Source: Calliopum simillimum (lineage: Eukaryota; Arthropoda; Insecta; Diptera; Lauxaniidae). Taken from it: a stretch of DNA of 64,000 nucleotides. Shown here one piece after another: positions 1 through 39,230 of the stretch (its first letter is position 1; every line of letters starts with the position of its first letter). The stretch spans positions 46,784,101-46,848,100 of the forward strand of contig OX638371.1 in the NCBI GenBank assembly GCA_951812925.1. Reading direction: 5' to 3'. The position numbers and the translations under genes were made by a program. The notes under the pieces were generated by a model, which was given only the letters and a program-made list of their open reading frames with translations, ran no database searches and was not told where the DNA came from.

Positions 1-146
1 ACAAAACTATCAGGTTATAGGGAATTGTATGCTCTATAAATGATAAGCAATGTATACAATTTACCGTTTACGAGTTATTCAATGAAAACCATTAAAATTA
101 AAGAAAACGTTAAAAAATCACTCCTAAATGGTAAATTATATGTGTA

Positions 147-350
147 CACAAAAAGTTTTCAAACTTACAATTTTTCAATTATAATTAATTTAGTGAAATA
201 AAATATAATTATAATTACAACAAAAATAGTCTGATGAGTCTTTGTGGCGAAAGACGAAACATATGTCACTATAGCCGTGTTTTTAACCCGATCCTTGATT
301 TGTCATAATTATGTGTTAGAAAATGCATTGATAGATTTATATGTAAATCG
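147..350 (+). mobile_element. tRNA-HHR element, copy 1 (5'-truncated, ribozyme only)
   Basis: This matches the downstream half of the full units at 1515-2335 but lacks the tRNA-like head; similarity starts at ACACAAAAAGTTTTC. It keeps the AT-rich spacer, a complete hammerhead core and the downstream tail ending near AAATCGACCT. It is one of seven copies of this family in the window. Truncation of the 5' half suggests incomplete reverse transcription, but could also reflect later deletion. Confidence 0.75.
226..272 (+). ncRNA. hammerhead ribozyme, copy 1
   Basis: The conserved core is complete. CTGATGA is at 231-237. Stem II is GTCTTT 238-243 paired with AAAGAC 250-255 around loop GTGGCG. GAAA is at 256-259, followed by a minimal stem III (C260, loop ATAT, G265) and the cleavage triplet GTC at 265-267. 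Stem I is ATAGT 226-230 paired with ACTAT 268-272, and can extend with A-rich and T-rich flanks across an internal loop. Cleavage is predicted after C267. This is the short-stem-III form known from Penelope-like and retrozyme elements. Confidence 0.9.
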
Positions 351-396
351 ACCTCATTTATAGAGCATACAATTCCCTATAACCTGATAGTTTTGT

Positions 397-1360
397 TCAT
401 CATTCATTAGTTATGGCAATTTAAAAATCAACATGTGGCTATGCACACTTATATACCGCATGTATGCATTACCAAGCTTTGACACTTTTTTAATTAGAAT
501 ATCTCCTAAGCTATTAGTCGTATGAAAACAACTCTGAAATCTTTTCTATAGAAAATTTTCAGGACTACAAAATTGTCTAGAACTATTTTTCTGAAAAAGT
601 AACCGTTAGTGTGATATTTGCAAAAATCAGATTTTTTCGACCTTTGACCTTGAATAACTTTTTATGCGTATGATTTTTTCACACTTTATCTTTCATGCAT
701 AAATAAAGAGTATTCTGGTGACAAAATTTCACTTTGAACTATTTTTCAGAAAAATCCGAATTTTGTCGAGCTAACTCCAATTTTAACGATATTTTTTTAA
801 CTAAATAATTTTTGTAATCATTTTTTTCAGTGTTTTTTTGTTAAGGAACGTAAACTTTTTATTCTATAGAAAACATACATGATATATATATAATATATGT
901 GTATATTTATAATTTTCATTATTTGTTACAATAATAAGCACAATTAATTTTCATATGTCGACTAAAAATATTGATTTTCATTGAAATTTTAACGGTTTTT
1001 TGCGATTTTTTTCTACTTAGTCTTATATTCTTTAGAATTTAATATGCTTTCATAATATATACACACTATGTATGTATAATCATTATTTACTAAAATATTG
1101 ATAAAAATTTAATTTTTGTGTCAAATCAAAACTTTTTTTTCATTTAAATTTTAACGGTTTTTTGGCTTTTTTTTTTTTTCAAAAACCGCTCTAACGATTT
1201 TTTTAAAAATTCACCAAATTATGCAGAATTTGATAGGCTTTCATAAAATGAAATAACCCCAGAGGGGTGTTTTTATCGTTATTTAAATTCTCAGGACAGC
1301 GCCGTGGCATATATCATTGTGCATTACATATTTGAAGGTATTAAATAATAGCAAAATGTT
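397..1360. other. AT-rich DNA without a gene
   Basis: No credible coding frame or family signature is visible. There are T-rich runs and loosely repeated phrases such as AATTTTAACGGTTTTTTG near 995 and 1145, which suggest old diverged repeats. Position 1317-1360 leads into the inverted HHR unit. Confidence 0.5.
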
Positions 1361-1514
1361 TTCTAACACATAATTATGACAAATCAAGGAACGGATTAAA
1401 AACACGGCTATAGTGACATATGTTTCGTCTTTCGCCACAAAGACTCATCAGACTATTTTTGTTGTAATTATAATTATATTTTATTTCACTAAATTAATTA
1501 TAATTGAAAAATTG
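1361..1514 (-). mobile_element. tRNA-HHR element, copy 2 (ribozyme half, inverted)
   Basis: This is the reverse complement of the ribozyme half of the full units, without the tRNA-like head. It abuts the tandem plus-strand copies at 1515, so the array is inverted at this point. The junction contains a short palindrome, TTGTTCC-AAA-GGAACAA, at about 1518-1534. Confidence 0.75.
1410..1456 (-). ncRNA. hammerhead ribozyme, copy 2
   Basis: On the minus strand this has the same core as copy 1: CTGATGA (complement of 1445-1451), the six-pair stem II, GAAAC, loop ATAT and GTC, closed by stem I ATAGT/ACTAT (1452-1456 with 1410-1414). Cleavage is predicted between 1415 and 1414. No core base differs from the active consensus. 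Confidence 0.88.
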
Positions 1515-1640
1515 AATTTGTTCCAAAGGAACAACTATACCAAATATCAATAAATAACACAAAACAACAATTATGATATATCAATACGTATTAACACACA
1601 AACAAAACTGGCAAAAGTCGGCTTCGCAGCCGGACAAGGC

Positions 1641-1694
1641 TGGTGCAGTGGTAACGACTTCTGCTACCAACCTAGAGTTTCTTGGTTCAACTCC
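1641..1694 (+). promoter_or_regulatory. tRNA-like pol III promoter (A and B boxes), unit 3
   Basis: TGGTGCAGTGG at 1641-1651 fits the A-box consensus TRGYNNARNGG, and GGTTCAACTCC at 1684-1694 fits the B box GGTTCRANTCC. Spacing is within the tRNA range. The block GCCGGAC...GCCCAGGC around it is only partly foldable as a cloverleaf, so I read it as a tRNA-derived SINE-type head, not a working tRNA gene. Confidence 0.75.
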
Positions 1695-1788
1695 CGCCCA
1701 GGCCAAAAACACAAAAAGTTTTCAAACTTACAATTTTTCAATTATAATTAATTTAGTGAAATAAAATATAATTATAATTACAACAAAA

Positions 1789-1835
1789 ATAGTCTGATGA
1801 GTCTTTGTGGCGAAAGACGAAACATATGTCACTAT
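1789..1835 (+). ncRNA. hammerhead ribozyme, copy 3 (upstream member of tandem)
   Basis: Identical in core and stems to copy 1: ATAGT 1789-1793, CTGATGA 1794-1800, stem II, GAAAC, GTC ending at 1830, ACTAT 1831-1835. Together with copy 4 it brackets exactly one 383-nt unit. Confidence 0.9.
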
Positions 1836-2023
1836 AGCCGTGTTTTTAACCCGATCCTTGATTTGTCATAATTATGTGTTAGAAAATGCATTGATAGATT
1901 TATACGTAAAGGAACAACTATACCAAATATCAATAAATAACACAAAACAACAATTATGATATATCAATACGTATTAACACACAAACAAAACTGGCAAAAG
2001 TCGGCTTCGCAGCCGGGCAAGGC

Positions 2024-2077
2024 TGGTGCAGTGGTAACGACTTCTGCTACCAACCTGGAGGTTCTTGGTTCAACTCC
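2024..2077 (+). promoter_or_regulatory. tRNA-like pol III promoter (A and B boxes), unit 4
   Basis: Same A box (2024-2034) and B box (2067-2077) as the unit 383 bp upstream. The stretch between the boxes here reads CAACCTGGAGGTT, an AACC/GGTT hairpin like a class II tRNA variable arm; in unit 3 this pairing is eroded. Confidence 0.75.
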
Positions 2078-2171
2078 CGCCCAGGCCAAAAACACAAAAA
2101 GTTTTCAAACTTACAATTTTTCTATTATAATTAATTTAGTGAAATAAAATATAATTATAATTACAACAAAA

Positions 2172-2218
2172 ATAGTCTGATGAGTCTTTGTGGCGAAAGA
2201 CGAAACATATGTCGCTAT
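2172..2218 (+). ncRNA. hammerhead ribozyme, copy 4 (downstream member of tandem)
   Basis: Same core as copy 3 (CTGATGA 2177-2183; GTC ends at 2213). The first base after the cleavage site is G, not A, giving a G-U wobble with T2176 in stem I, so pairing is kept (ATAGT with GCTAT). Confidence 0.88.
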
Positions 2219-2439
2219 AGCCGTGTTTTTAATCCGTTCCTTGATTTGTCATAACTATGTGTTAGAAAATGCATTGATAGATTTATATGTAAATCGACCT
2301 TTGCAAATATATGACTAAAAGTTCAATTAAAAAATCAATTTTCAAAATGTTTTTTTTTTTTTTTGCGAGACATACTTTATTAAATATGTGTATTGAATAT
2401 TTACACAAGTCTGGTTTATAAAATAGAAACAAGAAAGAA

Positions 2440-2640
2440 AGTGTAAAAAATTGTTTCGAAAAATCTTAACGAAATCGTTACGAATTCGTAACGAAAACTC
2501 TGAACAGTTTCGAATTTATTCCGAGAAATCGAAGGAAAAAAATTAAAAAATTTTTCAGAAAAATCTTTACGAAATCGTTATGAATTCGTAACGAAAACAA
2601 TTTTTTCTGAAAAAGTCTGAATTCAGAAGAATTCGAAAAT
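2440..2640. repeat. short tandem repeat with AACGAAATCGTTACGAATTC motif
   Basis: The phrase (C)GAAATCGTTACGAATTCGTAACGAAAA occurs at about 2467 and 2571 with similar flanks (AAAAATCTT before it), i.e. two diverged units of about 105 bp. The motif is internally palindromic (TTACGAATTCGTAA). There is no coding signal. Confidence 0.55.
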
Positions 2641-2689
2641 TAAAGAAAACAAAACTAGTAAGAGTGTTACCTTTGGCGTGGCCAAACAT

Positions 2690-3285
2690 TAAATAACCTA
2701 CACTGCAGTATTTTGAAAATTTGGCTTGTACGGGAGGTGCCACGAACTCTTGTCCAAATTCACATAGCTATTGCTCAGATCTTGGACTGACTGTCCTTAG
2801 TGTCTGAGTGAAATTTAGTTGAATTATCTCAAAAAACTTTTTCAGTACAACATTTTGACGATTTTGTTGCCACGCCCTCTTGTTCAAGTTCGCCTAGTTG
2901 TTGTTCAGAGCTTGCCTTTACTATTTTTACTGCATGAGTGAAATTTAGTTGGATTATCTGAAAACATTTTTTCAGTATAGCACTTTGAAGCTTATGCTTA
3001 TATGGGATTTGTCACGCCCTCTTTTCCGAGGTCACCTAGTTTTTGCTCAGAGCTTGCATTTACTGTTCTGAATGGTTGAGTGCAATTTAGTTGGAATATC
3101 CCAAAAAACGTTTAAAGTATAGCTTTTTGAAACTTTTGCTTATATGGAGGAGCCACGCCCTGGCTATATCAGCTCAGGAGGTGACGCTGATCAAGAATAT
3201 ATGTACTTTTTCATACCTGCCACGCCTCCTTCTCTGCGGAAGGACAAAGTGAATATACCCTGGGTGTAGGTTATAAAAACAATCG
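2690..3285. repeat. diverged tandem repeat (about 130 bp) with fly repeat tail
   Basis: Four imperfect units share phrases such as GCCACGCCCTCTT, TTGCTCAGAGCTTGC, GAGTGAAATTTAGTTG and CTTTTTCAGTA. The last part (about 3155-3283) ends GGACAAAGTGAATATACCCTGGGTGTAG followed by GTTATAAAAA, and closely matches 31430-31565. This type of tail is widespread in fly genomes; I cannot assign it to a named family. Confidence 0.6.
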
Positions 3286-3389
3286 CATTAAAAAACTTGA
3301 CAATTAGGGTTTATCAGGGACTGAAAGCCCCATTTCAAATTCTATCAGCATAATGATAAGCGACTATGGTGGGAATGTAGCTTCAGTTT

Positions 3390-3590
3390 AACTGTGGCAA
3401 GGTGATGGACACATTAGCCCCAAGTCCCGACAATAATCCTATCGAAAATTTGTGGGTCTATTTAAAGAAAAAGGTCGCTAAAAGACATCGAAATACCGAA
3501 CTACATTTGAAAATAAAATATTGGAAAAGACCGAGTAATAACAACCTGAAAAAGTTGGTTCCTTCTATGTTAAAACGTCTATAATGTGGT
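3390..3590 (+). pseudogene. Tc1/mariner-type transposase, C-terminal remnant
   Basis: The frame at 3402-3584 contains SPDNNPIENLWVYLKKKV, which corresponds to the SPDLNPIENLW block near the end of the DDE/DDD transposase of Tc1-like elements. Only about 60 residues remain, no start region or catalytic aspartates are present, and no inverted repeats were found nearby. It is a dead fragment of a cut-and-paste transposase. Confidence 0.75.
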
Positions 3591-4540
3591 AGATGCTTAC
3601 GGTGTTCATTCAAAGATGGCTGTAAACAAGGAAGATACTAAAAATTTAATATAAAAACATTTATTTTTATTAGTGAGAAGACATTCTTGACACTTCAAAA
3701 ATCGAGTATTATTTGAATGGGTTTTTTTGAAAGTGGAATAAGTCCACTTTTTCATAAACTGAGATATTAAAGGATTTGCGTTCGACTTAATTTAAAAGTT
3801 TACTAAAGTGTTACTAAAACTATGCAATAATGATAGTTTTTCGAAAAATAGTGCTTTTAAAAAAAAAATGGTCAAAATTTCTGAAAATTTGCAATATTTC
3901 TAAAACCACGACTCAGATTACAATTTTTTGTAAAAATGCTTTTCATGAAAAGTTCTTTTGAGTAATTTATGATGAAATCGTGGTCTAACGAGTCTGTAAT
4001 TTTTAATATAAAAAGAGGACATATATATATCCGAAAATAATCTCCTCTTATATTTTTTGTTGTTTTGAACAGATAATGATTTACATTAACTAGCTACCAA
4101 CAAATCACGTGTCAAGTGGTTTTTGTGGTGCGAGCTTACTGTTCTGTGTTTTTGAGTAAAAACAACAACATTACAAAAACAAGGCAAAATGCATAGGTAA
4201 AAAAACCAAAAAATTTGTTGGTAGGGGTTGGTTTTCGATACGTTTCACCCATAACCATATGGGATCTTCAGTCAAATTTACCTACAAACCAAGAACTCGA
4301 CCAAGCATGCTTTATTAATTTTTTGCATAGATTAGACGAGAATCACAGCAATAAATTCAACGCAGCATATGAAAAGTTCTAATTTTTTTGTTTTTTCCCC
4401 TGTTATGCATCGCCCCGCTATTTGTAAGTCGTTGATATTATACTTTTCTTGCAAAGCGCCTTCCTCTTATATGACCCAGGTTTTGAGAACATTTTTTTTT
4501 TTTCATGTTCAATAACCAAATGTGATGGAATATATTCCTA
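3591..4540. other. AT-rich DNA without a gene
   Basis: No convincing coding frame. Bases 3715-3750 (TTTGAATGGG...GGAATAAGTCCAC) are inverted relative to 6583-6630, so this stretch may be the outer flank of the foldback structure that follows. Confidence 0.45.
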
Positions 4541-6590
4541 GACGTATAAAATGAAATTCCCAATTGGTAAACAAAAAAATTTCGACCCGAGAGGGTGTCA
4601 GGAGGTCGTTTTATCAAAAAATTTTGGGAAAATCGAGATTTCCGATAATATACGGGAGAGCTCATATTCCAGAAGTAGAAGATATGTTACGGGGCACCTT
4701 TCCAAATATTCTGGAGTAAAATTCAGAAAAATCGTATGTGGGTCGTTGCGACAAAATGGGTTAAAAAGCCGAAATCACACATAACAGGTCCTAAAATTCT
4801 GAAAAAATTCAAATAAGTTCCTTGATAAAAAAAAAATCGATTTTGTTTATGATGTTTTTTAATTTAAGCGCCCCCTGCCGGGTAAAAAACAAAAAACTCT
4901 AAGTTTTGGGTGAAAAGTTCGATTATTGGCGATATGCAATCGAGCACACCATAGCGACACATAAGGCAAGAAGCGGGATATCTAACAAATATTCTGATGT
5001 AAAATTCAGAAATATCGTATGTGGGTCGTGGCGACAGTATGGGTTAAAAAGCAAGAATTGCTCTTTACGCCCACATAACAGGTCCTAAAATTCTGAAAAA
5101 AGTCAAGCAAATTCCTTGAAGAAAAATAAATTGACTTTGTTTATGATGTTTTTTGATTAAAGTCCCCCCTGCCGAGTAAAAAACGAAAAACTCTAATTTT
5201 GGGTAAAAAATGTGATTTTTGGCGGAATGCAAAATTTAGCGTTTTTCGTTTTTTGCTCGACATGGGGGCTTAAATTCAAAAAACGTCATAAACAAATTCA
5301 ATTCATTTTCCATCAAGGAATTTGCATGATTTTTTTCAGCATTATAGACCCTGTTACATGTGCGTGAAGTTGGCCCTGCTTTTGTGGAATTTCCCGAAAA
5401 AAAAAGTTGTGCCGGGGTGTGCTCCACTTGTGCCGCGTTGTGCCGTATTGGAAATCAAAATCGGTCCAAGGGTTCACTTTTTATAGGGAGGTCCTTTTTT
5501 TTGTGCGAAGTTAGCCCTGCTTTTGTGGAATTTCCCGAAAAAAAAAGTTGTGCCGGGGTGTGCTCGACTTGTGCTGCGTTGTGCCGTATTGGAAATCAAA
5601 ATCGGTCCATTAGTATAGATTTTATGGGGAGGTCCTTTTTTTGGCGGATACGTAAATTTGTGGAATTTCCCGAAAAAAAAAGTTGTGCCGGGGTGTGCTC
5701 CACTTGTGCTGCGTTGTGCCGTATTGGAAAAAAAAATCGGTCCAAGGGTTCACTTTTTATGGGGAGGTCCATTTTTTTTGTGCGAAGTTAGCCCTGCTTT
5801 TGTGAAATTTCTCGAAAAAGAAAGTTTTTTCCAATACGGAACAACGCAGCACAAGTGGAGCACACCCCGGCACAACTTTTTTTTTCGGGAAATTCCACAA
5901 ATTTACGTATCCGCCAAAAAAAGGACCTCCCCATAAAATTTATACTAATGGACCGATTTTGATTTCCAATACGGCACAACGCAGCACAAGTCGAGCACAC
6001 CCCGGCACAACTTTTTTTTTCGGGAAATTCCACAAAAGCAGGGCTAACTTCGCACAAAAAAAAGGACCTCTCTATAAAAAGTGAAGCCTTGGACCGATTT
6101 TGATTTCCAATACGGCACAACGCGGCACAAGTGGAGCACACCCCGGCACAACTTTTTTTTTCGGGAAATTCCACAAAAGCAGGGCCAACTTCACGCACAT
6201 CCCTGTACGTGGCCGTAATGACCGAATTAAACTTTTTAACCCCTTCTGACGCCACGACCCACATACTATTTTTCTGAATTTTACTCCAGAATATTTGTTA
6301 GATATCCCGCTGTCTTACTTTATGTGTCACTACGGTGTGCTCGATCGCATATCGCCAATAATCGCATTTTTTGCCCAAAATTTAGCGTTTTTCGATTTTT
6401 ACTCGGCAGGGGGCGCTTAGATTAAAAATATCATGAGCAAAGTCGATTTATTTTTTATCAAGGAATTTGCTTGAATTTTTTCAGAATTTTAGGACCTGTT
6501 GTTTGGCCGTAATGAGTGACCCATTAACCCATTCTGTCGCCACGACCCACATACGATTTTTCTGAATTTTACTCAATTTTTCCGGAATTG
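4540..6590. mobile_element. foldback-type element with nested inverted repeats
   Basis: Outer repeat units (AAATCGTATGTGGGTCG, ACAGGTCCTAAAATTCTGA, GCGCCCCCTGCCG) occur twice in plus orientation (4690-4890, 4970-5180) and in minus orientation at 6265-6560. The centre is a near-perfect palindrome of tandem blocks: 5358-5731 is the reverse complement of 5826-6200, with a spacer of about 94 bp. Within each arm a unit of about 140 bp is repeated three times. The frames read across these blocks repeat the same peptide on both strands, a by-product of the palindrome. I could not locate target-site duplications. Confidence 0.7.
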
Positions 6591-12795: not shown

Positions 12796-15700
12796 ATGGG
12801 CATGTCGGCTAGAAGTGAAATTCATTCAACGGTGTCCAAGCTCAATGGAGCTAATTATGCAGTCTGGAAGATGAAGATGGAGCTGATACTGATCAAGGAA
12901 GATCTCTGGGATGTGGTCAACGAGGAACCTCCAAAGGAAGTGAATGCGGCATGGAATAAGCGTGATGGACAGGCACGCGCATGCATTGGTCTGTTGATCG
13001 AGGATGACCAGTTTATTTATTTGAAGGATGAAAAAACTGCTAGGGATTATTGGATTAGCCTTAAGACACATCATGAAAAGCCATCTTTAAGCACACGAGT
13101 CTTCGTGATGAAAACGATCTGCAAGATGCAACTTAATGACGATAAAAGGATGGAAGCACACATAAATGAAATGATGGGATACATGGAACAGCTAGCTATC
13201 ATGGGTGATCCTTTGAGTGAATCTTGGTCTGTCGCTATGTTATTAAGAAGTTTACCAGATACATATGACCCGCTTATTGTTGCATTGGAAGCACGAGATG
13301 ACAAACAGCTAAGTTTTGCTTTTGTTAGAGGAAAGCTCGTTGAGGAAGCAAAGCGAAGGTGTCACAGAATGGAATCATCGGATTCCGCGGTAATGAAAGT
13401 GCAAGGTACAAAATACAAGGCAGAAGGACGATCAGAAAGAGTTGGACTCAAGTGTTTCTTTTGTGAGAAGACTGGTCATATAAAAAAGGATTGCAAGCAG
13501 TTCAAAGGTTTTTTGCAGAAGAAAAGAAGCAACAAAGTTAATTTAACTGGGCATAGTGGTGATGATGCGGAAATCGTAGAGCAATGCTTTTGGTTTGGTA
13601 AATTGGCAAATTCTGATTGGTATATAGATTCAGGGGCCACTTGCCATATATCGAATCAAAGAAATTTCTTTACCACTTTAAACGAGAGTCATGCTGATCC
13701 TGTAAATGTTGCGAATGGATACAGAATTAATGCGAGCGGAAAGGGTTCCGGTTATCTTAAAGTATTCAATCAACGTGGTCAAATTGAAAAGATTCCTGTG
13801 ATGGATGTCCTCTACGTTCCATCGATAGAAAGTAATTTGCTGTCGGTTAAGAAATTGACTGAAAAAGGATACAGTGTTCTGTTCGAAGGAAATGTATGCA
13901 AAATTCAAAAGAAAGGTTGTACTCCAATTTTGGCATACATGGCGAATGGTCTTTATAAATTGAAACTCGAAGCTGAGCAGATCAACGCTGTGAACGACGA
14001 GAGAAATTGCCATGGCTGTCTTCATGAATGGCATCGTCGTATGGGTCATCGCGACATCAATGCTGTAAGCAAGGCACTGAAACAATTTGGAGTAAGCGCC
14101 AAGAGTTGCTGCAAGGATATGCAATGTGAAATCTGTTTGTCAGGCAAGATGAGTAGAAAACCATTTCCAAAGACCTCAGGTGAGCAGTCATCAAGTATTT
14201 TAGATTTGGTTCATACCGACGTCGCACAAATGAACGTAGCTACACCGAGCGGATATCGTTATTTTGTTACGTTGATTGATGATTTTAGTAGATACTGTGT
14301 CCTATACCTACTAAAGAATAAATCTGAAGTATTTGATCGCCTTAAGGATTACATGAACTATGTTAAAGTAAAGTTCAATAAATTTCCTAAAATATTGAGG
14401 TCAGATCGTGGAGGGGAATATCTAGCAACAAGGGTGAAGACCTATCTTGCAAGTATTGGTACGCAGCAGCAGTATACAGCACCGTACACGCCACAACAGA
14501 ACGGTGTGGCAGAAAGGCGTAACAGATACTTGGTTGAAATGCTGAGATGTATGCTAGCAGATTCAGGAATGTCAAACCAGTTTTGGGGAGAGGCTGTACT
14601 CACAGCAAATTTCATTCAAAATCGATTGCCAACTAGGTCAAATGAGAGGATTCCTTATGAAATCTGGGAGAATAGAAAAGTTGACGTTACAGAATTTCAA
14701 GTTTTTGGAGCAGATGCACATGTTTTTATACCTGGTCAACATAGAAAGAAGTTGGATAAAAAAACGCAAGTTCTGACATTCGTTGGTTACTCCGAGCAAT
14801 CAAAAGCTTTGCGTTTTTTGAATAAGAAGAATCTGTCGATTGTTATAAGTCGTGATTACAAGATTCTTGACAACGCAAAACAGATTTGCGAGCAGAAAAC
14901 TCTATCAAGTGAAGTTGTTGTTGATTTGGGGTGCAGACGCAGCGATTATGAAAAATCTGAAGCTCAAGTTGAAATTTTTAGAAGTGATGGAGATTTCTAT
15001 TCTGCAGATGAAGATGCTGTAGATGATGTTGTTGTGAATGGAAATGCTATATGTGAAGATGCTGTGGACAAGGTTGTTGAGGATGAAGAAGCTGTAGAAC
15101 ATGATTTGGAAATAAATGCTGCTGGTTTTAGCGAAATGCCAACTTCAAACTCACTGTCACAGGACATTACTTCTGAAAAACAACAAATTCATGCACAACA
15201 GTTGCGTAGGTCATCGCGCGCTACTAAGGGTATTCCACCAGATCGTTATATAAATGTTGTTGTTGAATCTGAGGAGCCTTCAACATTAAAGCAAGCTATG
15301 GAGAGTACCGATTATCATAAATGGAAGGCAGCAATGGATGATGAAATGCAATCTCTTTTACGAAATAATACATGGAAGATTGTACCGCTTCCAGCAGGAC
15401 GAAAAGCGATTGGCTGTAAGTGGATTTACAAAATAAAACGTGGTGCTGATGGAAAAGTCACAAAACACAAGGCAAGACTCGTGGCACAAGGTTATAATCA
15501 AAAGTTTGGCGTGGATTATGATCAAGTTTTCGCACCTGTGGTTAGACAAGCGACTCTTCGTTTGTTTTTGGCATTGGCGGGTATCAAGAAATACACTGTA
15601 AAGCATTATGATATCAAGACACCGTTCCTAAATGGAGATTTGCATGAGGATATCTACATGCGTCAACCTCCTGGGTATGAAGTCTCAAGTAATGATGAAG

Positions 15701-16488
15701 ATGTGTTTGTCTGCAAGTTGCAAAAGAGCTTGTATGGTCTAAAACAAGCCGCCAGATGCTGGAACGTAAAGTTGTTTGAGGTTTTGAAACAGGCTGGTTT
15801 TAAACAAGGTCAAGCAGATCCGTGTCTATTGAAGTTAGCAGTTCAAGACAAGTACATATATATACTAGTCTATGTAGATGATATTTTGGTTGCTGCAACT
15901 TTTGAACAACACTTTGAACTTGTTGAGAAAATCCTTGAAAACAATTTTGAGCTATCAAAACTTGGAGATGTCAGTTATTATTTGGGAATCAAAATTGAGA
16001 GGGGAGATGATGGATATTTCTCCATTAATCAAGAAAATTATATTGATAAAATTATCAATCAAGCTAGTTTGGATGACAGCAAAATTTCCAAAATTCCAAT
16101 TGATGTTGGATACATCAGTTTAAACCGTAAAGAATGTACTCCACTCGAAAACAATGTGAAGTATCATGAATTAGTTGGATCTTTGTTGTACTTGGCTGTT
16201 AACACCCGTCCAGACATATCTGCGGCAATTTCAATCTTAAGTCAGCATGTGAGTCAACCAATGCAAGAAGACTGGACTGAAATGAAGCGCTTGGTGAAGT
16301 ATTTGAAAGGAACTAAAAATATGAGGCTGAAACTCGGTGAAGCACTTGGTGGCGGTCTTATTGGTTTTGCAGATGCCGATTGGGCGCAAAATAGACAAGA
16401 CAGAAAATCAAATAGTGGTTTCATTTTTAAATGGAATGGTGCTTGTATGTTGCATTGGCAGAAGCAGCTCAAGAAGCAATGTGGCTAA
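12796..16488 (+). CDS. copia Gag-Pol polyprotein, first copy (1230 codons, 3' end disrupted)
   Basis: This is the single copia polyprotein of capsid/nucleocapsid, protease, integrase, reverse transcriptase and RNase H. Visible in order: Gag with CCHC knuckle C220-C233 (CFFCEKTGHIKKDC); protease DSGA at D278; integrase with an H-H-C-C finger near 410-450 and D475, D537, E573 as the DDE triad (D-61-D-35-E); RT with YVDD at about 1026-1029; RNase H start ADADW. The first ATG overlaps the primer-binding site and ATGTCG two codons later is an equally likely start. The frame ends early because about 60 bp were lost within RNase H, including the segment that usually holds the SSTEAEY block with a catalytic glutamate. 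The remainder continues in another frame at 16431-16760. Codon use is even and no other stop is present, implying a recent insertion. Confidence 0.95.
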   Translation: MGMSARSEIHSTVSKLNGANYAVWKMKMELILIKEDLWDVVNEEPPKEVNAAWNKRDGQARACIGLLIEDDQFIYLKDEKTARDYWISLKTHHEKPSLSTRVFVMKTICKMQLNDDKRMEAHINEMMGYMEQLAIMGDPLSESWSVAMLLRSLPDTYDPLIVALEARDDKQLSFAFVRGKLVEEAKRRCHRMESSDSAVMKVQGTKYKAEGRSERVGLKCFFCEKTGHIKKDCKQFKGFLQKKRSNKVNLTGHSGDDAEIVEQCFWFGKLANSDWYIDSGATCHISNQRNFFTTLNESHADPVNVANGYRINASGKGSGYLKVFNQRGQIEKIPVMDVLYVPSIESNLLSVKKLTEKGYSVLFEGNVCKIQKKGCTPILAYMANGLYKLKLEAEQINAVNDERNCHGCLHEWHRRMGHRDINAVSKALKQFGVSAKSCCKDMQCEICLSGKMSRKPFPKTSGEQSSSILDLVHTDVAQMNVATPSGYRYFVTLIDDFSRYCVLYLLKNKSEVFDRLKDYMNYVKVKFNKFPKILRSDRGGEYLATRVKTYLASIGTQQQYTAPYTPQQNGVAERRNRYLVEMLRCMLADSGMSNQFWGEAVLTANFIQNRLPTRSNERIPYEIWENRKVDVTEFQVFGADAHVFIPGQHRKKLDKKTQVLTFVGYSEQSKALRFLNKKNLSIVISRDYKILDNAKQICEQKTLSSEVVVDLGCRRSDYEKSEAQVEIFRSDGDFYSADEDAVDDVVVNGNAICEDAVDKVVEDEEAVEHDLEINAAGFSEMPTSNSLSQDITSEKQQIHAQQLRRSSRATKGIPPDRYINVVVESEEPSTLKQAMESTDYHKWKAAMDDEMQSLLRNNTWKIVPLPAGRKAIGCKWIYKIKRGADGKVTKHKARLVAQGYNQKFGVDYDQVFAPVVRQATLRLFLALAGIKKYTVKHYDIKTPFLNGDLHEDIYMRQPPGYEVSSNDEDVFVCKLQKSLYGLKQAARCWNVKLFEVLKQAGFKQGQADPCLLKLAVQDKYIYILVYVDDILVAATFEQHFELVEKILENNFELSKLGDVSYYLGIKIERGDDGYFSINQENYIDKIINQASLDDSKISKIPIDVGYISLNRKECTPLENNVKYHELVGSLLYLAVNTRPDISAAISILSQHVSQPMQEDWTEMKRLVKYLKGTKNMRLKLGEALGGGLIGFADADWAQNRQDRKSNSGFIFKWNGACMLHWQKQLKKQCG

Positions 16489-16760
16489 GGTTACTGATGT
16501 CAGATTTTGGACTTTCTACTGAAGAAGCGACGGTAATTTACGAAGATAATCAAAGCTGCGTCAAAATGGTAGAAAACGAAAAATTTAGCAAACGAACCAA
16601 ACACATTGATACGAAGTATCATTTTTTGAAAGATTTGAAAAATAAACAAATGCTCAAGATACTTTACTGTCCTACTGAAAATATGGAAGCAGATATTTTC
16701 ACCAAACCTTTAGCATTCACAAAAATTAAGAAATTTAGAAACTTGTTAAAATTGTTCTAA
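16431..16760 (+). pseudogene. copia RNase H C-terminal part, out of frame (first copy)
   Basis: From VALAEAAQEAMWLR to the end (EDNQSC, KHIDTKYHF, DIFTKPL) this is the standard carboxy end of copia Pol, separated from the main frame by the deletion near 16448. It stops just upstream of the polypurine tract. The broken join means no full RNase H can be made from this copy. Confidence 0.9.
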
Positions 16761-16771
16761 TTAAGGGAGTA

Positions 16772-16985
16772 TGTTGAAATTTGTTTAAAAACACTTTGTT
16801 AGAAACACTTAACGCAAATTTAGTTTCTAAATTTGAGTTAACTTTGAAATATAATTAGAAAATTTTATATGTTGAAAATTGTAAAAAATAGTTTAGTTTT
16901 AGTTTTTGAATAAAACAGAATTACACTTCACACTTTTGTATTAAATAAAATAGCTTCTAGTGGAATTGGAACTTGGATTCCAATA
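16772..16985 (+). repeat. copia LTR 2 (shared middle LTR)
   Basis: It serves as 3' LTR of the first internal region and 5' LTR of the second. It has AACACTTAACG early, like LTR3, and TTACACTTC late, like LTR1. This mosaic is what unequal exchange between a 3' and a 5' LTR produces. Confidence 0.95.
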
Positions 16986-16989
16986 GGTT

Positions 16990-19900
16990 ATGGGCATGTC
17001 GGCTAGAAGTGAAATTCATTCAACGGTGTCCAAGCTCAATGGAGCTAATTATGCAGTCTGGAAGATGAAGATGGAGCTGATACTGATCAAGGAAGATCTC
17101 TGGGATGTGGTCAACGAGGAACCTCCAAAGGAAGTGAATGCGGCATGGAATAAGCGTGATGGACAGGCACGCGCATGCATTGGTCTGTTGATCGAGGATG
17201 ACCAGTTTATTTATTTGAAGGATGAAAAAACTGCTAGGGATTATTGGATTAGCCTTAAGACACATCATGAAAAGCCATCTTTAAGCACACGAGTCTTCGT
17301 GATGAAAACGATCTGCAAGATGCAACTTAATGACGATAAAAGGATGGAAGCACACATAAATGAAATGATGGGATACATGGAACAGCTAGCTATCATGGGT
17401 GATCCTTTGAGTGAATCTTGGTCTGTCGCTATGTTATTAAGAAGTTTACCAGATACATATGACCCGCTTATTGTTGCATTGGAAGCACGAGATGACAAAC
17501 AGCTAAGTTTTGCTTTTGTTAGAGGAAAGCTCGTTGAGGAAGCAAAGCGAAGGTGTCACAGAATGGAATCATCGGATTCCGCGGTAATGAAAGTGCAAGG
17601 TACAAAATACAAGGCAGAAGGACGATCAGAAAGAGTTGGACTCAAGTGTTTCTTTTGTGAGAAGACTGGTCATATAAAAAAGGATTGCAAGCAGTTCAAA
17701 GGTTTTTTGCAGAAGAAAAGAAGCAACAAAGTTAATTTAACTGGGCATAGTGGTGATGATGCGGAAATCGTAGAGCAATGCTTTTGGTTTGGTAAATTGG
17801 CAAATTCTGATTGGTATATAGATTCAGGGGCCACTTGCCATATATCGAATCAAAGAAATTTCTTTACCACTTTAAACGAGAGTCATGCTGATCCTGTAAA
17901 TGTTGCGAATGGATACAGAATTAATGCGAGCGGAAAGGGTTCCGGTTATCTTAAAGTATTCAATCAACGTGGTCAAATTGAAAAGATTCCTGTGATGGAT
18001 GTCCTCTACGTTCCATCGATAGAAAGTAATTTGCTGTCGGTTAAGAAATTGACTGAAAAAGGATACAGTGTTCTGTTCGAAGGAAATGTATGCAAAATTC
18101 AAAAGAAAGGTTGTACTCCAATTTTGGCATACATGGCGAATGGTCTTTATAAATTGAAACTCGAAGCTGAGCAGATCAACGCTGTGAACGACGAGAGAAA
18201 TTGCCATGGCTGTCTTCATGAATGGCATCGTCGTATGGGTCATCGCGACATCAATGCTGTAAGCAAGGCACTGAAACAATTTGGAGTAAGCGCCAAGAGT
18301 TGCTGCAAGGATATGCAATGTGAAATCTGTTTGTCAGGCAAGATGAGTAGAAAACCATTTCCAAAGACCTCAGGTGAGCAGTCATCAAGTATTTTAGATT
18401 TGGTTCATACCGACGTCGCACAAATGAACGTAGCTACACCGAGCGGATATCGTTATTTTGTTACGTTGATTGATGATTTTAGTAGATACTGTGTCCTATA
18501 CCTACTAAAGAATAAATCTGAAGTATTTGATCGCCTTAAGGATTACATGAACTATGTTAAAGTAAAGTTCAATAAATTTCCTAAAATATTGAGGTCAGAT
18601 CGTGGAGGGGAATATCTAGCAACAAGGGTGAAGACCTATCTTGCAAGTATTGGTACGCAGCAGCAGTATACAGCACCGTACACGCCACAACAGAACGGTG
18701 TGGCAGAAAGGCGTAACAGATACTTGGTTGAAATGCTGAGATGTATGCTAGCAGATTCAGGAATGTCAAACCAGTTTTGGGGAGAGGCTGTACTCACAGC
18801 AAATTTCATTCAAAATCGATTGCCAACTAGGTCAAATGAGAGGATTCCTTATGAAATCTGGGAGAATAGAAAAGTTGACGTTACAGAATTTCAAGTTTTT
18901 GGAGCAGATGCACATGTTTTTATACCTGGTCAACATAGAAAGAAGTTGGATAAAAAAACGCAAGTTCTGACATTCGTTGGTTACTCCGAGCAATCAAAAG
19001 CTTTGCGTTTTTTGAATAAGAAGAATCTGTCGATTGTTATAAGTCGTGATTACAAGATTCTTGACAACGCAAAACAGATTTGCGAGCAGAAAACTCTATC
19101 AAGTGAAGTTGTTGTTGATTTGGGGTGCAGACGCAGCGATTATGAAAAATCTGAAGCTCAAGTTGAAATTTTTAGAAGTGATGGAGATTTCTATTCTGCA
19201 GATGAAGATGCTGTAGATGATGTTGTTGTGAATGGAAATGCTATATGTGAAGATGCTGTGGACAAGGTTGTTGAGGATGAAGAAGCTGTAGAACATGATT
19301 TGGAAATAAATGCTGCTGGTTTTAGCGAAATGCCAACTTCAAACTCACTGTCACAGGACATTACTTCTGAAAAACAACAAATTCATGCACAACAGTTGCG
19401 TAGGTCATCGCGCGCTACTAAGGGTATTCCACCAGATCGTTATATAAATGTTGTTGTTGAATCTGAGGAGCCTTCAACATTAAAGCAAGCTATGGAGAGT
19501 ACCGATTATCATAAATGGAAGGCAGCAATGGATGATGAAATGCAATCTCTTTTACGAAATAATACATGGAAGATTGTACCGCTTCCAGCAGGACGAAAAG
19601 CGATTGGCTGTAAGTGGATTTACAAAATAAAACGTGGTGCTGATGGAAAAGTCACAAAACACAAGGCAAGACTCGTGGCACAAGGTTATAATCAAAAGTT
19701 TGGCGTGGATTATGATCAAGTTTTCGCACCTGTGGTTAGACAAGCGACTCTTCGTTTGTTTTTGGCATTGGCGGGTATCAAGAAATACACTGTAAAGCAT
19801 TATGATATCAAGACACCGTTCCTAAATGGAGATTTGCATGAGGATATCTACATGCGTCAACCTCCTGGGTATGAAGTCTCAAGTAATGATGAAGATGTGT

Positions 19901-20682
19901 TTGTCTGCAAGTTGCAAAAGAGCTTGTATGGTCTAAAACAAGCCGCCAGATGCTGGAACGTAAAGTTGTTTGAGGTTTTGAAACAGGCTGGTTTTAAACA
20001 AGGTCAAGCAGATCCGTGTCTATTGAAGTTAGCAGTTCAAGACAAGTACATATATATACTAGTCTATGTAGATGATATTTTGGTTGCTGCAACTTTTGAA
20101 CAACACTTTGAACTTGTTGAGAAAATCCTTGAAAACAATTTTGAGCTATCAAAACTTGGAGATGTCAGTTATTATTTGGGAATCAAAATTGAGAGGGGAG
20201 ATGATGGATATTTCTCCATTAATCAAGAAAATTATATTGATAAAATTATCAATCAAGCTAGTTTGGATGACAGCAAAATTTCCAAAATTCCAATTGATGT
20301 TGGATACATCAGTTTAAACCGTAAAGAATGTACTCCACTCGAAAACAATGTGAAGTATCATGAATTAGTTGGATCTTTGTTGTACTTGGCTGTTAACACC
20401 CGTCCAGACATATCTGCGGCAATTTCAATCTTAAGTCAGCATGTGAGTCAACCAATGCAAGAAGACTGGACTGAAATGAAGCGCTTGGTGAAGTATTTGA
20501 AAGGAACTAAAAATATGAGGCTGAAACTCGGTGAAGCACTTGGTGGCGGTCTTATTGGTTTTGCAGATGCCGATTGGGCGCAAAATAGACAAGACAGAAA
20601 ATCAAATAGTGGTTTCATTTTTAAATGGAATGGTGCTTGTATGTTGCATTGGCAGAAGCAGCTCAAGAAGCAATGTGGCTAA
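16990..20682 (+). CDS. copia Gag-Pol polyprotein, second copy (1230 codons, 3' end disrupted)
   Basis: The protein is identical over its full length to the first copy, including the same early end in RNase H. Domain positions are as for the first copy: CCHC at residue 220, DSGA 278, integrase DDE 475/537/573, YVDD about 1026. It begins at the same codon relative to the PBS at 16986. Identity of two complete internal regions means the duplication is very recent or is an assembly product. Confidence 0.93.
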   Translation: MGMSARSEIHSTVSKLNGANYAVWKMKMELILIKEDLWDVVNEEPPKEVNAAWNKRDGQARACIGLLIEDDQFIYLKDEKTARDYWISLKTHHEKPSLSTRVFVMKTICKMQLNDDKRMEAHINEMMGYMEQLAIMGDPLSESWSVAMLLRSLPDTYDPLIVALEARDDKQLSFAFVRGKLVEEAKRRCHRMESSDSAVMKVQGTKYKAEGRSERVGLKCFFCEKTGHIKKDCKQFKGFLQKKRSNKVNLTGHSGDDAEIVEQCFWFGKLANSDWYIDSGATCHISNQRNFFTTLNESHADPVNVANGYRINASGKGSGYLKVFNQRGQIEKIPVMDVLYVPSIESNLLSVKKLTEKGYSVLFEGNVCKIQKKGCTPILAYMANGLYKLKLEAEQINAVNDERNCHGCLHEWHRRMGHRDINAVSKALKQFGVSAKSCCKDMQCEICLSGKMSRKPFPKTSGEQSSSILDLVHTDVAQMNVATPSGYRYFVTLIDDFSRYCVLYLLKNKSEVFDRLKDYMNYVKVKFNKFPKILRSDRGGEYLATRVKTYLASIGTQQQYTAPYTPQQNGVAERRNRYLVEMLRCMLADSGMSNQFWGEAVLTANFIQNRLPTRSNERIPYEIWENRKVDVTEFQVFGADAHVFIPGQHRKKLDKKTQVLTFVGYSEQSKALRFLNKKNLSIVISRDYKILDNAKQICEQKTLSSEVVVDLGCRRSDYEKSEAQVEIFRSDGDFYSADEDAVDDVVVNGNAICEDAVDKVVEDEEAVEHDLEINAAGFSEMPTSNSLSQDITSEKQQIHAQQLRRSSRATKGIPPDRYINVVVESEEPSTLKQAMESTDYHKWKAAMDDEMQSLLRNNTWKIVPLPAGRKAIGCKWIYKIKRGADGKVTKHKARLVAQGYNQKFGVDYDQVFAPVVRQATLRLFLALAGIKKYTVKHYDIKTPFLNGDLHEDIYMRQPPGYEVSSNDEDVFVCKLQKSLYGLKQAARCWNVKLFEVLKQAGFKQGQADPCLLKLAVQDKYIYILVYVDDILVAATFEQHFELVEKILENNFELSKLGDVSYYLGIKIERGDDGYFSINQENYIDKIINQASLDDSKISKIPIDVGYISLNRKECTPLENNVKYHELVGSLLYLAVNTRPDISAAISILSQHVSQPMQEDWTEMKRLVKYLKGTKNMRLKLGEALGGGLIGFADADWAQNRQDRKSNSGFIFKWNGACMLHWQKQLKKQCG

Positions 20683-26849: not shown

Positions 26850-27270
26850 GGATACTTCAATTTCGGTAGCTCCTCGATACGGCGATGATTTTGAATAAAC
26901 CGTCCGAAAATAAGTAGAATATATTAAATAAAATTTTTCTTTATCTCGCTTCGTTTTCAAGGTATAATACTTAAACAATACGAGAATATTGAACAAATTT
27001 CTGGAATTGTTAGATTTGACGATGTTTCCACATAAAACGTCCCAAAATAAGTAAATAAAAATATTCAATATTCCGCTCCGTTTTCGAGATGGGAAACTTA
27101 AGGCATGAGAGATACTGAAAAATTTGCTTGAAAAATTAATTTCAAGAAAATTAAACTCTGTTTTTACATAAAACAACCTAGGATAAATCGAAAAAGTTAA
27201 ATAAAATTTTACGATATCTTGCTTCGTTTTGGAGATAACTATAAAAAAATTCCGATGGCAAATCAGCACA
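26850..27270. repeat. diverged tandem repeat (about 130 bp)
   Basis: Three or four units share TAAAATTTT, a CTCGCTTCGTTTTCAAG-like phrase, ACATAAAACGTCC/ACATAAAACAACCT and GAAAAATTTG. They are degenerate and non-coding. Confidence 0.5.
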
Positions 27271-27412
27271 TAATTTAATATTTACTCTAACTATTGGCAA
27301 AAAAATTAGTAGGAAGAATGCGACTTAAAATGAAATAATTTTATTCCATTAATACGAACTTGTACAGTCAAATTTGCAATGAACAACAACCGACGCTACA
27401 AATATTAACTTG

Positions 27413-27509
27413 AAAATTGGTGACATACATATGTTTCGGCTATTACCATATACACATATATATATTTGCATATATATATATATGTACATAGCCTCATCAG
27501 ACCTATTTT
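27413..27509 (-). ncRNA. hammerhead ribozyme, family B, with long AT stem II
   Basis: Minus strand: stem I AAAAT-A-GGT (complement of 27501-27509) pairs with ACC-A-ATTTT (27413-27421) with one A-A mismatch. CTGATGA is at 27500-27494. Stem II starts GGCTAT/ATAGCC (27493-27488, 27443-27438) and continues into an (AT)n-rich extension. GAAA is at 27437-27434. Stem III ACAT/ATGT has a short loop, and the cleavage triplet GTC is at 27424-27422. All core bases are present. The stem II loop differs completely from family A, so this is not a diverged copy of it. Confidence 0.82.
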
Positions 27510-27530
27510 AGTTAATCTTTGCTTCTTTCT

Positions 27531-27600
27531 AGAATCGAACCGCAGCCTTCTGCATTCTAATGAAAGAGTGCAGCAGACCTCTACCACTAAGGCCATGCTA
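27531..27600 (-). promoter_or_regulatory. tRNA-like pol III promoter, family B
   Basis: The block runs GCATGGCCTTAGTGGTAGAG...CTGCGGTTCGATTCTAG. The B box is close to consensus and the A box has one extra base. Between them TCTGCTGCACTCTTTCATTAGAATGCAGA can fold as a stem with TCTGC at both ends. This is a tRNA-derived SINE head, not a scored tRNA gene. Confidence 0.7.
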
Positions 27601-28120
27601 CGGAACGATCTACCGCGTCAAAGATCCTCACATAAATAACACTGTTGTTGTTATTTATGTAAGTCCACTTGCTATAGCAGTCTTAAAAAGCAAAATTAAA
27701 ATCATTTTAATTTGTGAAAAATCATTGAAATAATTTTATTTATTCATTTTATTTGTCCAAGTGATTTAGAGTGCTTGCGTCTATATTTTCATTAAATTTT
27801 ATTGGAATTAAATTCCCAAGTAAGTCCCAGAAAAATCCAGCAATCGCCTTATAGTACCCAAAATTAAGAATGGATTCCCACAAAAGTAAATTCCCAACAT
27901 AAGGCAGCATGGTTTAGCAAATTACACGCATTCTCTGACAGCCAATACGTGTAAGCAGAGGACGACGGCAGAACTAAGCTTCACTTCTTTTGATTTTCTA
28001 TGTGCTGTAGTGTTAATAGATAATACAACTTAAAATAGTGTTTATTTAAACCATTGAAATTATTTTTGAAGAACTTTACCGTAAGATTAAAAAAAAATAT
28101 TTTTGTTTAAAAAGACATGA
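27601..28120. other. no gene recognised
   Basis: AT-rich. It contains a small inverted repeat ACATAAATAAC/GTTATTTATGT at about 27630-27660 and the short dispersed repeat shared with 21850-21885. Confidence 0.4.
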
Positions 28121-31965: not shown

Positions 31966-32019
31966 ATAAAATCCACAAACAAAAACATCAAATTTGAATC
32001 AGCAGCTGATACAATTTTG

Positions 32020-32165
32020 TTATCATTTTGATATACATTTCTGACACAAAATTGACATGTTTTTCAATGATATCAAAAATACATTTTTGATATCATTTTG
32101 ATATCCATTTCTGAAACAAAATTGACATGTTTTTCAATGATATCAAAAATATATCACTTTTATTA
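32020..32165. repeat. AT-rich GATATCAAAAATATATC repeat (left of PLE)
   Basis: Units built from TTTTTGATATCATTTTGATAT, GACATGTTTTTCAATGATATC and AAAATATATC match the 111-bp tandem units at 40790-41350. The same repeat resumes at 34935-35040 right of the Penelope-like block, so the latter was inserted into it. Confidence 0.7.
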
Positions 32166-32266
32166 ATATCGGCCTTATGTAGAATTATTAATTTTTGTAT
32201 TGGGCTTTGACCGTGAAAAATAAAAACACAAATCTTTGTTTTTTTTATTTTATTTTTAAATTTTAA

Positions 32267-32309
32267 AATCCGATATTTCGGCTAAAATTGCTAGCCATCA
32301 TCAGGGACT
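32267..32309 (-). ncRNA. hammerhead ribozyme of Penelope-like element, left copy
   Basis: Minus strand: AGTCC, CTGATGA, T, GGCTA-loop-TAGCC, GAAA, TATC, GGATT. Stem I AGTCC/GGATT has one G-U pair; stem III is minimal. Cleavage is predicted after the C of TATC. This matches the form described for Penelope-like elements (CTGATGATGGC...GCCGAAAnnTC). Confidence 0.85.
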
Positions 32310-32565
32310 GAAAACATAATAATATAGAAAAACGACAGTTTAAAAGTTTTATATCACAATTTTTAACAGAATTATAAACACAAGAACTAAATTTTTACTA
32401 TATAAAATTTAAGAAATTACCGTAAAATTTAAAATATTTTTTTTCTAAAACTAAAATTTAAACAAAACAACGTAGTTCACGTCTAGCAGTGTCATTGTCA
32501 ACTAAATTTATGTCTAAGAAGATGTTTGTAAATATGCGTGCAACCATCGGTGTCGGATTTGAAGT

Positions 32566-33611
32566 TTAACCTCTTATGTGTAGGTGTATTGATGATATGT
32601 AGCATCTCTTTCGTGTATCTTCGGTAGTAATTATTTTCTTGTTGAAGTATTTTGGTTTCGTCGAAGTTCGGTAAATTTTAAATGTGCAGTGAGCCGCAAG
32701 TGCAGTTTTGTTCTTGTTATTTGTTTTTATGTCCGATTTATGTCCCGAAGATCTTGTTTTTAATTTACATTTCGTTGTGCCAACATATGTTTTTCCACAT
32801 ATATCTGTTCCATTACCTTTGCATGTTATTTGGTAAATCAGATTTGACTTTTCCATTTTATCTATGTTGCTTTTTGTGTTGCCATAAACACTTCTAAGGG
32901 TATTGTAGGGTTTTGGAGCTAACTGAAAATTGCTTTGGTTATAAATGTTGGACTTTTTTAATTTTTCCGTGTAACCGTGTACATACGTCACATTTTTGTA
33001 AATTTTTGGTTCAGAGTTACTGATATTATTGTTGCTGTTGGTCGTTTGCTGCTCAACCTGTCGTATTAGGTGTCTAATAGTGGCCTCAGGAAAATCATTA
33101 ATCTGAAGAATGTTTTTAATTTTAATTTTATTTGCTTCATGAAAAACCGCATCACTTATATTGAGTACTTTTTGAATAAAATTATCAACGTTTTCTTAGG
33201 ATGTTTGGAAAAGAAATTTATTAGTCTGCCTGATGCAGTTGGTTTTTGATACCAATCTGTTTTTAAAACGTTGTTAGCTCTCATCACAATTGTGTCTAAG
33301 TATGGTAATCGTCTCTCGTACTCTTCTTCCTTGGTGAATTTTATATTTCTGTTATATGCGTTTAATATTTTCAAACTACTTTCGATCGAATCTGTTCTAA
33401 CTATTGCGAAGATGTCATCTACGTATTTCGTTAGCAGTCTTGGTTTTGGTTCAACATTTTCTAAAAATTTGTCGAACACTTCTTCCATCACGATATCTGC
33501 AATGATTGGGGAAATTGGAGATCCCATAGGCATTCCTTTGAGCTGGCTATAAATAGTATCTTCATATTTAAAAAAGTTATTCTCCTTAATACAAAATTTG
33601 TGAATTTCCAT
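32566..33611 (-). pseudogene. Penelope-like RT/GIY-YIG polyprotein, C-terminal half (left)
   Basis: Starting at 33611 the frame shows LKGMPMGSPISPIIADIVME, the RT catalytic box YVDDIFAI, NRNIKFTKEEE, RLPYLDTIVMR and the KPTASGRLINFFSKHPKKT block typical of Penelope RT. The endonuclease part has YVGTTKCKLKTR followed by GHKSDIK, the GIY-YIG-like end of the family. The two parts are in different frames across 32991-33156 and the first half of RT is missing, so this copy is inactive. Confidence 0.85.
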
Positions 33612-33620
33612 AAAAAGGGT

Positions 33621-34665: not shown

Positions 34666-34814
34666 AATTTTAATTTTAGAAAAAAAATATTTAAAATTTT
34701 ACGGTAATTTCTTAAATTTAATATAGTAAAAATTTAGTGTTTGTGTTTATAATTCTGTTAAAAATTGTGATATAAAATTTTTAAACTGTCGTTTTTCTAT
34801 ATTATTATGTTTTC

Positions 34815-34857
34815 AGTCCCTGATGATGGCTAGCAATTTTAGCCGAAATATCGGATT
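34815..34857 (+). ncRNA. hammerhead ribozyme of Penelope-like element, right copy
   Basis: AGTCC 34815-34819, CTGATGA 34820-34826, GGCTA/TAGCC stem II, GAAA 34845-34848, TATC to 34852, GGATT 34853-34857; further T/A pairing (TTTT with AAAA) can extend stem I. Same sequence as the left copy. Confidence 0.85.
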
Positions 34858-34937
34858 TTAAAATTTAAAAATAAAATACAAAAAACAAAGATTTGTGTTT
34901 TTATTTTTCACGGTCAAAGCCCAATACAAAAATTATC

Positions 34938-35045
34938 AAAAATATATCAAAATGATATACAAAAATTGCATATCAGCAGCTGATACATTTTTGATATCAT
35001 TTTAAATACAAAGACAAGAAATTGACAAATTTCCTTGATCGGGTA
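34938..35045. repeat. AT-rich GATATCAAAAATATATC repeat (right of PLE)
   Basis: Continues the repeat at 32020-32165 and ends with CCTTGATCGGG, the same terminal motif as the 40773-41361 element. Confidence 0.65.
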
Positions 35046-35184
35046 AAAACCAATGAAAGTTTTTCATTTTAAGACCGGACTAAAATAAAAAACGCTCAAA
35101 CTGGTTCGAAAACTATCAGCAGGTGAGCAAATGCAGTCAAAAATCAAGTAAATCAAGTAAATAAACAAATCAGCTGTTTACTAA

Positions 35185-39105: not shown

Positions 39106-39230
39106 AAAATTGATTTTTTAATTGAACTTTTAGTCATATATTTGCAAAGATCGACTTACATATAAATCTATCAATGCATTTTTCTAACACATAATTATGA
39201 CAAATCAAGGAACGGATTAAAAACACGGCT

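Follow-up and report, generated by a model that had tools for sequence, protein, structure and literature searches.

Two families of short repeats in the genome of the fly Calliopum simillimum, unrelated in sequence and built of units of 547 and 606 nt, are probably non-autonomous elements of the metazoan non-LTR retrozyme type, which would spread through circular RNAs released by hammerhead ribozymes and copied by the reverse transcriptase of a Penelope-like element (PLE). Both are present in the window, that is, the whole stretch of 64,000 nucleotides analysed here. An earlier note on this DNA had taken a tandem pair of 383-bp units for a retrozyme-like element. That reading agrees with the intact type I hammerheads, their short stem III, the tandem and longer-than-unit copies, the many dispersed copies and the flanking repeats of at least 10 bp at some of them.

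The locus at positions 1352-2353

The two direct units lie at 1525-1907 and 1908-2290 on the plus strand (period 383, two copies, 97% matches) and differ at 9 of 383 positions; the leader TTGAATTTGTTCC stands immediately upstream of the first. Each has A- and B-box-like sequences and an intact hammerhead core, with cuts predicted after 1830 and 2213, as the earlier note had described. The coordinates in that note leave out an inverted partial copy at 1359-1514 (minus strand) and a 3' tail running to about 2343 (2291-2343, plus strand), which in canonical copies lies within the unit of about 547 nt. The inverted piece, 156 nt long and 99% complementary to 1731-1886, directly adjoins the left side of unit 1 and has an intact hammerhead of its own, the third at the locus, with its core at 1451 on the minus strand. 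The locus is bracketed by an 11-bp direct repeat, CAAAATGTTTT, at 1352-1362 and 2343-2353, a candidate target-site duplication: 11 bases are shared by 0.37% of random stretch pairs, and the element ends may account for up to 5 of the 11. This repeat was missed by the automatic end-finder, which put the ends of the locus elsewhere. On balance, the inverted piece, the two units and the tail were inserted together as one composite. No open reading frame of at least 150 amino acids was found at 1352-2353, and the GC content is 0.30 over positions 1-4000 of the window.

The two units were not copied from one circle, since they carry different lineage markers: unit 1 and a family-1 copy at 146-354 have two bases in common that are absent from other copies. 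The 383-bp period arises because about 160 nt, tail plus spacer, are missing where the units join (block ends at 386 and 1). A length of 383 nt for the unit of family 1 is ruled out, 547 nt being the norm among genome copies, and the 383-nt circle that had been proposed is not the form of the family but corresponds to a deletion variant. A reading of the inverted arms as those of a DNA transposon (TIR/MITE) was also rejected, the arms being inverted 3' ends of variable length.

The hammerhead of family 1

The type I hammerheads of units 1 and 2 lie at 1789-1835 (core at 1794) and 2172-2218 (core at 2177) on the plus strand. A strict hammerhead descriptor finds six sites in the window, all of family 1, against two in 100 simulated windows, and a relaxed one finds seven, the seventh belonging to family 2, against none in 200. 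The combination of an A box, a B box and a downstream hammerhead core occurs at three places in the window (both units and family 2), while 200 simulated windows yielded 10 pairs of A and B boxes, one of them with a hammerhead core. The strict-descriptor and box-plus-core counts, set against the simulated windows, therefore place the observation beyond chance. The Rfam covariance scoring that had been proposed as a check does detect the family-1 hammerheads, at scores under the cut-offs: at a lax threshold, positions 1200-2700 score 21.5 bits against Hammerhead_1, whose cut-off is 34, and 22.7 against Hammerhead_3, whose cut-off is 48.5, and no match over the whole window comes up to the gathering score.

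The earlier note would have abandoned its reading if other genomic copies lacked covariance-supported hammerheads. The core is intact in 58 of 63 family-1 pieces (48 identical). When the two families are compared, 4 of 14 pairs, all four of them in stems I and II, are changed on both sides and still paired, with one mismatch; copies of a single family are too alike for such a comparison. Among the 44 of 53 family-1 units used for variability tallies (those left out being eight of the nine units of a tandem array and an old copy in the window), the 47 columns of the hammerhead hold 12 changes against 50.1 expected (block bootstrap 0.006), and among 389 windows of equal length 18 have as few changes. 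Within the window copies taken by themselves, the hammerhead is not significantly less variable than the rest (1 of 47 columns against 20 of 336, p 0.24).

As a monomer, the family-1 hammerhead is a poor fold, with a probability of about 0.001. Its stem III, ACAUAUGU, has a 2-nt loop within one molecule and forms 8 pairs between two, and two copies folded together give a double hammerhead at -25.2 kcal/mol. This predicted structure accords with the need of vertebrate retrozymes for dimers, as stated in a passage of PMC7229834.

The exact family-1 hammerhead was not found in viral contigs. Looser pattern scans of these contigs gave 50 loci, apparently phage, and in eight of these a hammerhead found by the descriptor is preceded, within 200 bases, by a B-box-like sequence; their sequence is unrelated. 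One apparently phage contig (L034, 6483-6700) has two complete hammerheads 150 bp apart with a tRNA-like B box between them.

Copies of family 1

The 690-Mb genome from which the window comes holds at least 83 matches to family 1, a lower bound because 40 of 1835 candidate places were scored; the sample, like that of family 2, is biased towards copies resembling the query. Copies lie on five large scaffolds, and the set comprises 43 loci, 39 fetched from the genome and four from the window. In the reference copy the 547-nt repeat is made up of unit and tail, together about 436 nt, and a spacer of about 107 nt. An array of nine full copies at a spacing of 544-548 nt, with a period of about 546 nt, occupies one locus (L069, 561-5595). 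This array is homogeneous (99-100%), with alternating variants, and resembles a young satellite. At 23 of the 43 loci, pieces on one strand exceed 555 nt, which is more than one unit.

Besides the composite locus, the window has a partial copy at 146-354 (plus strand) with an intact hammerhead (core at 231); a copy at 39067-40062 (minus strand) that is unbroken over a length of about 1.8 canonical units, has two hammerheads 542 nt apart (cores at 39814 and 39272) and is adjoined by an inverted tail arm at 40059-40148 (plus strand); and an old copy at 48342-48851 (minus strand), about 75% identical, with a mutated hammerhead core and an inverted tail arm on its 5' side. A perfect 43-bp inverted repeat, 1-43 and 354-396, brackets the copy at 146-354 and may extend past the start of the window.

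Ends of the copies and the template

The ends were analysed by gap-tolerant alignment at 41 of the 43 family-1 loci, 146-354 and 48342-48851 being left out; since such an alignment can bridge inverted arms, piece lengths were taken from a separate listing of blocks. The 3'-type outer ends are clustered, 54 of 56 falling at unit positions 405-501, with 26 at 405-464 and 28 at 475-501, whereas the 26 ends of 5' type are scattered over positions 21-539. Many insertions are head-to-head pairs in which both outer ends are 3' ends. Retrozymes have target-site duplications longer than 4 bp when these are present, and here end repeats of at least 10 bp occur at 6 of 41 loci against 0.8% in the control (at least 8 bp: 7 of 41 against 4.0%). 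The clear cases are L060 (15 bp), L070 (10 bp) and L095 (12 bp); the other three of the six longest, at L061, L083 and L091, are AT-rich or runs of T.

Since copies start at their 3' side near one region and run on for more than one unit, the template must have been circular, or tandem and multimeric. Copies longer than one unit are explained equally well by a multimeric linear transcript and by a circle. On the window copies alone the tail had seemed to lie outside the circle, a reading that would have excluded a circular template; it was discarded, the tail lying inside the 547-nt unit in genome copies.

Family 2

The window copy of family 2 (27331-27740, minus strand; A box at 27595, B box at 27541) consists of an inverted tail arm and a core between the two copies of a 15-bp direct repeat, 27740-27726 and 27345-27331. 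This repeat is at most suggestive of an insertion repeat; an equally good one turns up in 4.7% of random stretches. The hammerhead core is at 27500, and the cut is predicted after 27422 on the minus strand. Although its sequence is unrelated to that of family 1, the architecture is alike, with A and B boxes upstream of a type I hammerhead. At least 90 matches were found in the 690-Mb genome, again a lower bound, with 40 of 1104 candidate places scored, and the set comprises 21 loci, 20 fetched plus the window copy. The unit is 606 nt long, three loci having given 606, 609 and about 610 nt, and one-strand pieces longer than 615 nt occur at 8 of 21 loci. The window copy itself lies inside a repeat of at least 1.2 kb (L098, 976-2172) that is found at three genomic places and is about 98.5% identical among them.

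Among 24 family-2 cores, CTGATGA is kept in 22 and GAAA in all; in one further copy the base that precedes the cut is altered. The stem III ACAUAUGU is common to 16 of the 24. The parts of the hammerhead, at variabilities of 0.0125 and 0.0339 where the mean is 0.0199, are not less variable than the rest, partly because the length of stem III changes. The window copy has a 4-nt insertion in stem III, and it folds alone as a hammerhead (z -4.58). No Rfam hammerhead family was listed for 27200-27800 at E<=5.

The Penelope-like element and other features of the window

A Penelope-like element at 32159-34965 forms a head-to-head inverted pair. Close to each outer end (32304, minus strand; 34820, plus strand) is what we take, from its sequence and the familiar structure of PLEs, to be a minimal hammerhead-like motif. 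Rfam listed no hammerhead in 32100-35100 at E<=2. The two copies of a 32-nt repeat in direct orientation (94%) flank the pair, at 31998-32029 and 34972-35003. The window has a 151-aa fragment of Penelope-type reverse transcriptase. Of its 22 matches, the named ones are the calyptrate flies Haematobia irritans, Musca autumnalis and Lucilia cuprina, in keeping with the assignment of the DNA to a fly that had been made from the letters. The PLE of the window is a possible source of reverse transcriptase for the retrozyme-like elements.

Elsewhere in the window, a Copia LTR element (12796-20682) has two 1230-aa open reading frames 4194 bp apart that look identical, as if tandemly duplicated. A 141-bp tandem repeat at 5366-5826 (scanned to 6000) adjoins a 158-aa reading frame with a repeated peptide (5788-6264), and reading frames for an RVT_1 reverse transcriptase (43297-43821) and a SAP-domain protein (45620-46237) both lie on the minus strand.

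tRNA-like boxes and RNA polymerase III

In unit 1, the A-box-like sequence TGGTGCAGTGG (1641-1651, plus strand) fits the A-box consensus, and the B-box-like GGTTCAACTCC (1684-1694, plus strand) has one mismatch; the copies in unit 2 are at 2024-2034 and 2067-2077. The spacing of the two boxes is tRNA-like, as in tRNA-derived SINEs transcribed by RNA polymerase III (pol III). A recognisable tRNA fold, another mark of such SINEs, was not detected: ARAGORN found no tRNA in the window or in the 19 genome loci submitted, and the Rfam tRNA families gave no match for 1200-2700 (E<=10) or 27200-27800 (E<=5).

Conservation of the boxes differs between the families. In family 1, 51 of 52 units have an A box in agreement with the consensus; its variability is 0.0062 where the mean is 0.0242, though 107 of 425 windows vary as little. 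The family-1 B box matches exactly in 15 of the 52 units (44 of 52 if position 6 is left free), with a variability of 0.0351, above the same average. Family 2 has an A box, TGGCCTAAGTGG, with a variability of 0.0104 and a B box, GGTTCGATTCT, with 0.0076, against a mean of 0.0199.

Elements of the pol III SINE type are free of internal pol III terminators. Between the B box and the hammerhead, unit 1 has a run of four T at 1719 and one of five at 1734 (1719-1738, plus strand), which are possible pol III stop signals. Over 49 family-1 units (4 of 53 were skipped), the longest T run in this stretch is T5 in 47 and T4 in 2; in family 2, all 24 cores are free of T4 in the stretch scored, from the B box to the cut. 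Yeast pol III needs five T at the minimum and six for efficient termination, according to a passage of PMC9278858; a corresponding rule for flies was not found. Judged from these sequence features, pol III transcription seems plausible for family 2 and doubtful for family 1. The earlier suggestion of pol III transcription has the presence of both boxes in its favour and, in family 1, the T runs before the ribozyme and the unconserved B box against it.

Comparison with known elements

In metazoan non-LTR retrozymes the repeats measure 150-450 bp and the RNAs about 170-400 nt, as given in a passage of Cervera and de la Pena (2020, PMC7229834). The fly elements resemble them, as there described, in their type I hammerhead, their tandem and dispersed, apparently non-coding repeats, their low GC content and the presence of a PLE in the genome. 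The nine-copy array and the copies of more than one unit match the tandem habit of retrozymes, and the units, at 547 and 606 nt, are larger than the range reported. Retrozymes are described as apparently promoterless in a part of a 2020 review (PMC7761336), unlike the fly families with their tRNA-like boxes.

Box A, box B and a type I hammerhead occur together in schistosome elements, as described in a passage of PMC2576457. We equate them with Smalpha, a name absent from that passage; SINEs resembling tRNA-Gln are likened to Smalpha in part of PMC2770079. Smalpha and Sjalpha belong to another phylum and are compared here by description only, and insertions of more than one unit and head-to-head inverted insertions are documented in the fly. 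Like PLEs with minimal hammerheads, the fly elements have a hammerhead at the element end and the head-to-head topology seen at 32159-34965; unlike them, the locus at 1352-2353 lacks a reading frame long enough for a reverse transcriptase, and its hammerhead has a stem III. The Helenus TRIMs (PMC10886601) are likewise short repeats with tRNA-like promoter sequence, located there in LTRs. In the passages of that source, two LTRs surround a PBS and PPT and target-site duplications are of 4-5 bp, whereas the fly units are adjacent with no internal domain, their clearest end repeats are of 10-15 bp and a hammerhead is present.

Among Diptera, hammerheads are reported from interspersed repeats of Aedes in a passage of PMC3088659. 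Those of the housefly and fruit flies are type III in the part of PMC7936874 concerned. Neither passage mentions A or B boxes, in contrast to the type I hammerheads with boxes described here. No report of a retrozyme with a tRNA-type promoter in flies was found among the open-licence PMC papers searched. The pairing of A and B boxes with a hammerhead is not unprecedented, being already known from the schistosome passage, and the claim that it was the most novel signal in this DNA is overstated in view of the Schistosoma mansoni elements and the hammerhead-bearing Aedes repeats.

Proposed mechanism and alternatives

In the mechanism that we favour, tandem copies would be transcribed, and neighbouring hammerheads are predicted by folding to pair through their palindromic stem III into a double hammerhead that would cut the RNA to unit lengths. 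The unit RNAs would then be circularised by host RtcB, an enzyme that circularises RNA in Drosophila cells according to a passage of PMC6614914. A Penelope-like reverse transcriptase would begin close to a fixed part of the tail, on one or both target strands, and could run on round the template, at times past a full unit, leaving 1.x-unit copies and head-to-head inverted pairs; the choice of enzyme is reasonable because the PLE of the window is also head-to-head, with its hammerhead-like motif near each outer end. The locus at 1352-2353 would be one composite insertion of this kind, with tail and spacer missing at the unit junction. The least certain step is the first, where the A and B boxes may permit pol III transcription.

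This last point separates the proposed mechanism from one in which the elements are retrozymes transcribed by read-through, from pol II or otherwise, a mode put forward in the 2020 review, and the tRNA-like boxes are relics of the capture of an old SINE. The above-average variability of the family-1 B box, exact in fewer than a third of units, the T5 runs of family 1 and the apparent lack of promoters in retrozymes all favour read-through, to which we give a little less than an even chance; set against it is the presence, in two unrelated families, of A- and B-like boxes at tRNA-like spacing before a hammerhead, a configuration met once in 200 simulated windows. In another alternative, linear pol III transcripts of hammerhead-bearing SINEs would be the template of reverse transcription, with no circle involved and the hammerhead merely trimming them. 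The schistosome precedent points this way, as do the low variability of both family-2 boxes and the T4-free stretch that follows them, together with the little-varying A box of family 1, a level shared by 107 of 425 windows. We nevertheless consider such SINEs unlikely, since the units reach far upstream of the A box and beyond the hammerhead, more than one unit is present at 23 of 43 and 8 of 21 loci, and T5 precedes the hammerhead of family 1.

Ordinary tandem satellites or dead repeats, whose units would come from local duplication of DNA with the ribozyme as a passenger, would account for the homogeneity of the nine-copy array, for the window locus being a deletion variant and for the broken core of the old copy at 48342-48851. 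They would leave unexplained the copies on five large scaffolds, the clustered 3' and scattered 5' ends, the end repeats above control and the depletion of changes in the family-1 hammerhead, and we regard them as very improbable. The retrozyme reading has its own points against it, among them Rfam scores that are below threshold or absent, the poor monomer fold of family 1, a family-2 hammerhead that is not depleted of changes and has an altered cut-site base in one copy, the differing lineage markers of the two window units, and the AT-rich or T-run character of three of the six longest end repeats. Our confidence in it is tempered by the undepleted family-2 hammerhead and the missing Rfam listing of family 2, and we still hold it to be probable.

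Implications

The ends of the 41 loci form a readable record of copying: the 3' start is clustered and the 5' end varies, the copy often exceeds one unit, and both target strands are often involved. A bolder proposal, which we put forward tentatively and with considerable doubt, is that retrozyme families of separate origin, at least two of them, exist in flies. They would have acquired a pol III promoter of the tRNA type, giving the element a start signal of its own, would be cut to unit-length RNA by double hammerheads and would be copied, on both target strands simultaneously, by the reverse transcriptase of a PLE, and so would constitute a self-promoted circular-RNA retroelement. The occurrence of two unrelated families with A and B boxes in one fly makes the idea of pol III transcription of animal retrozymes directly testable in an insect.
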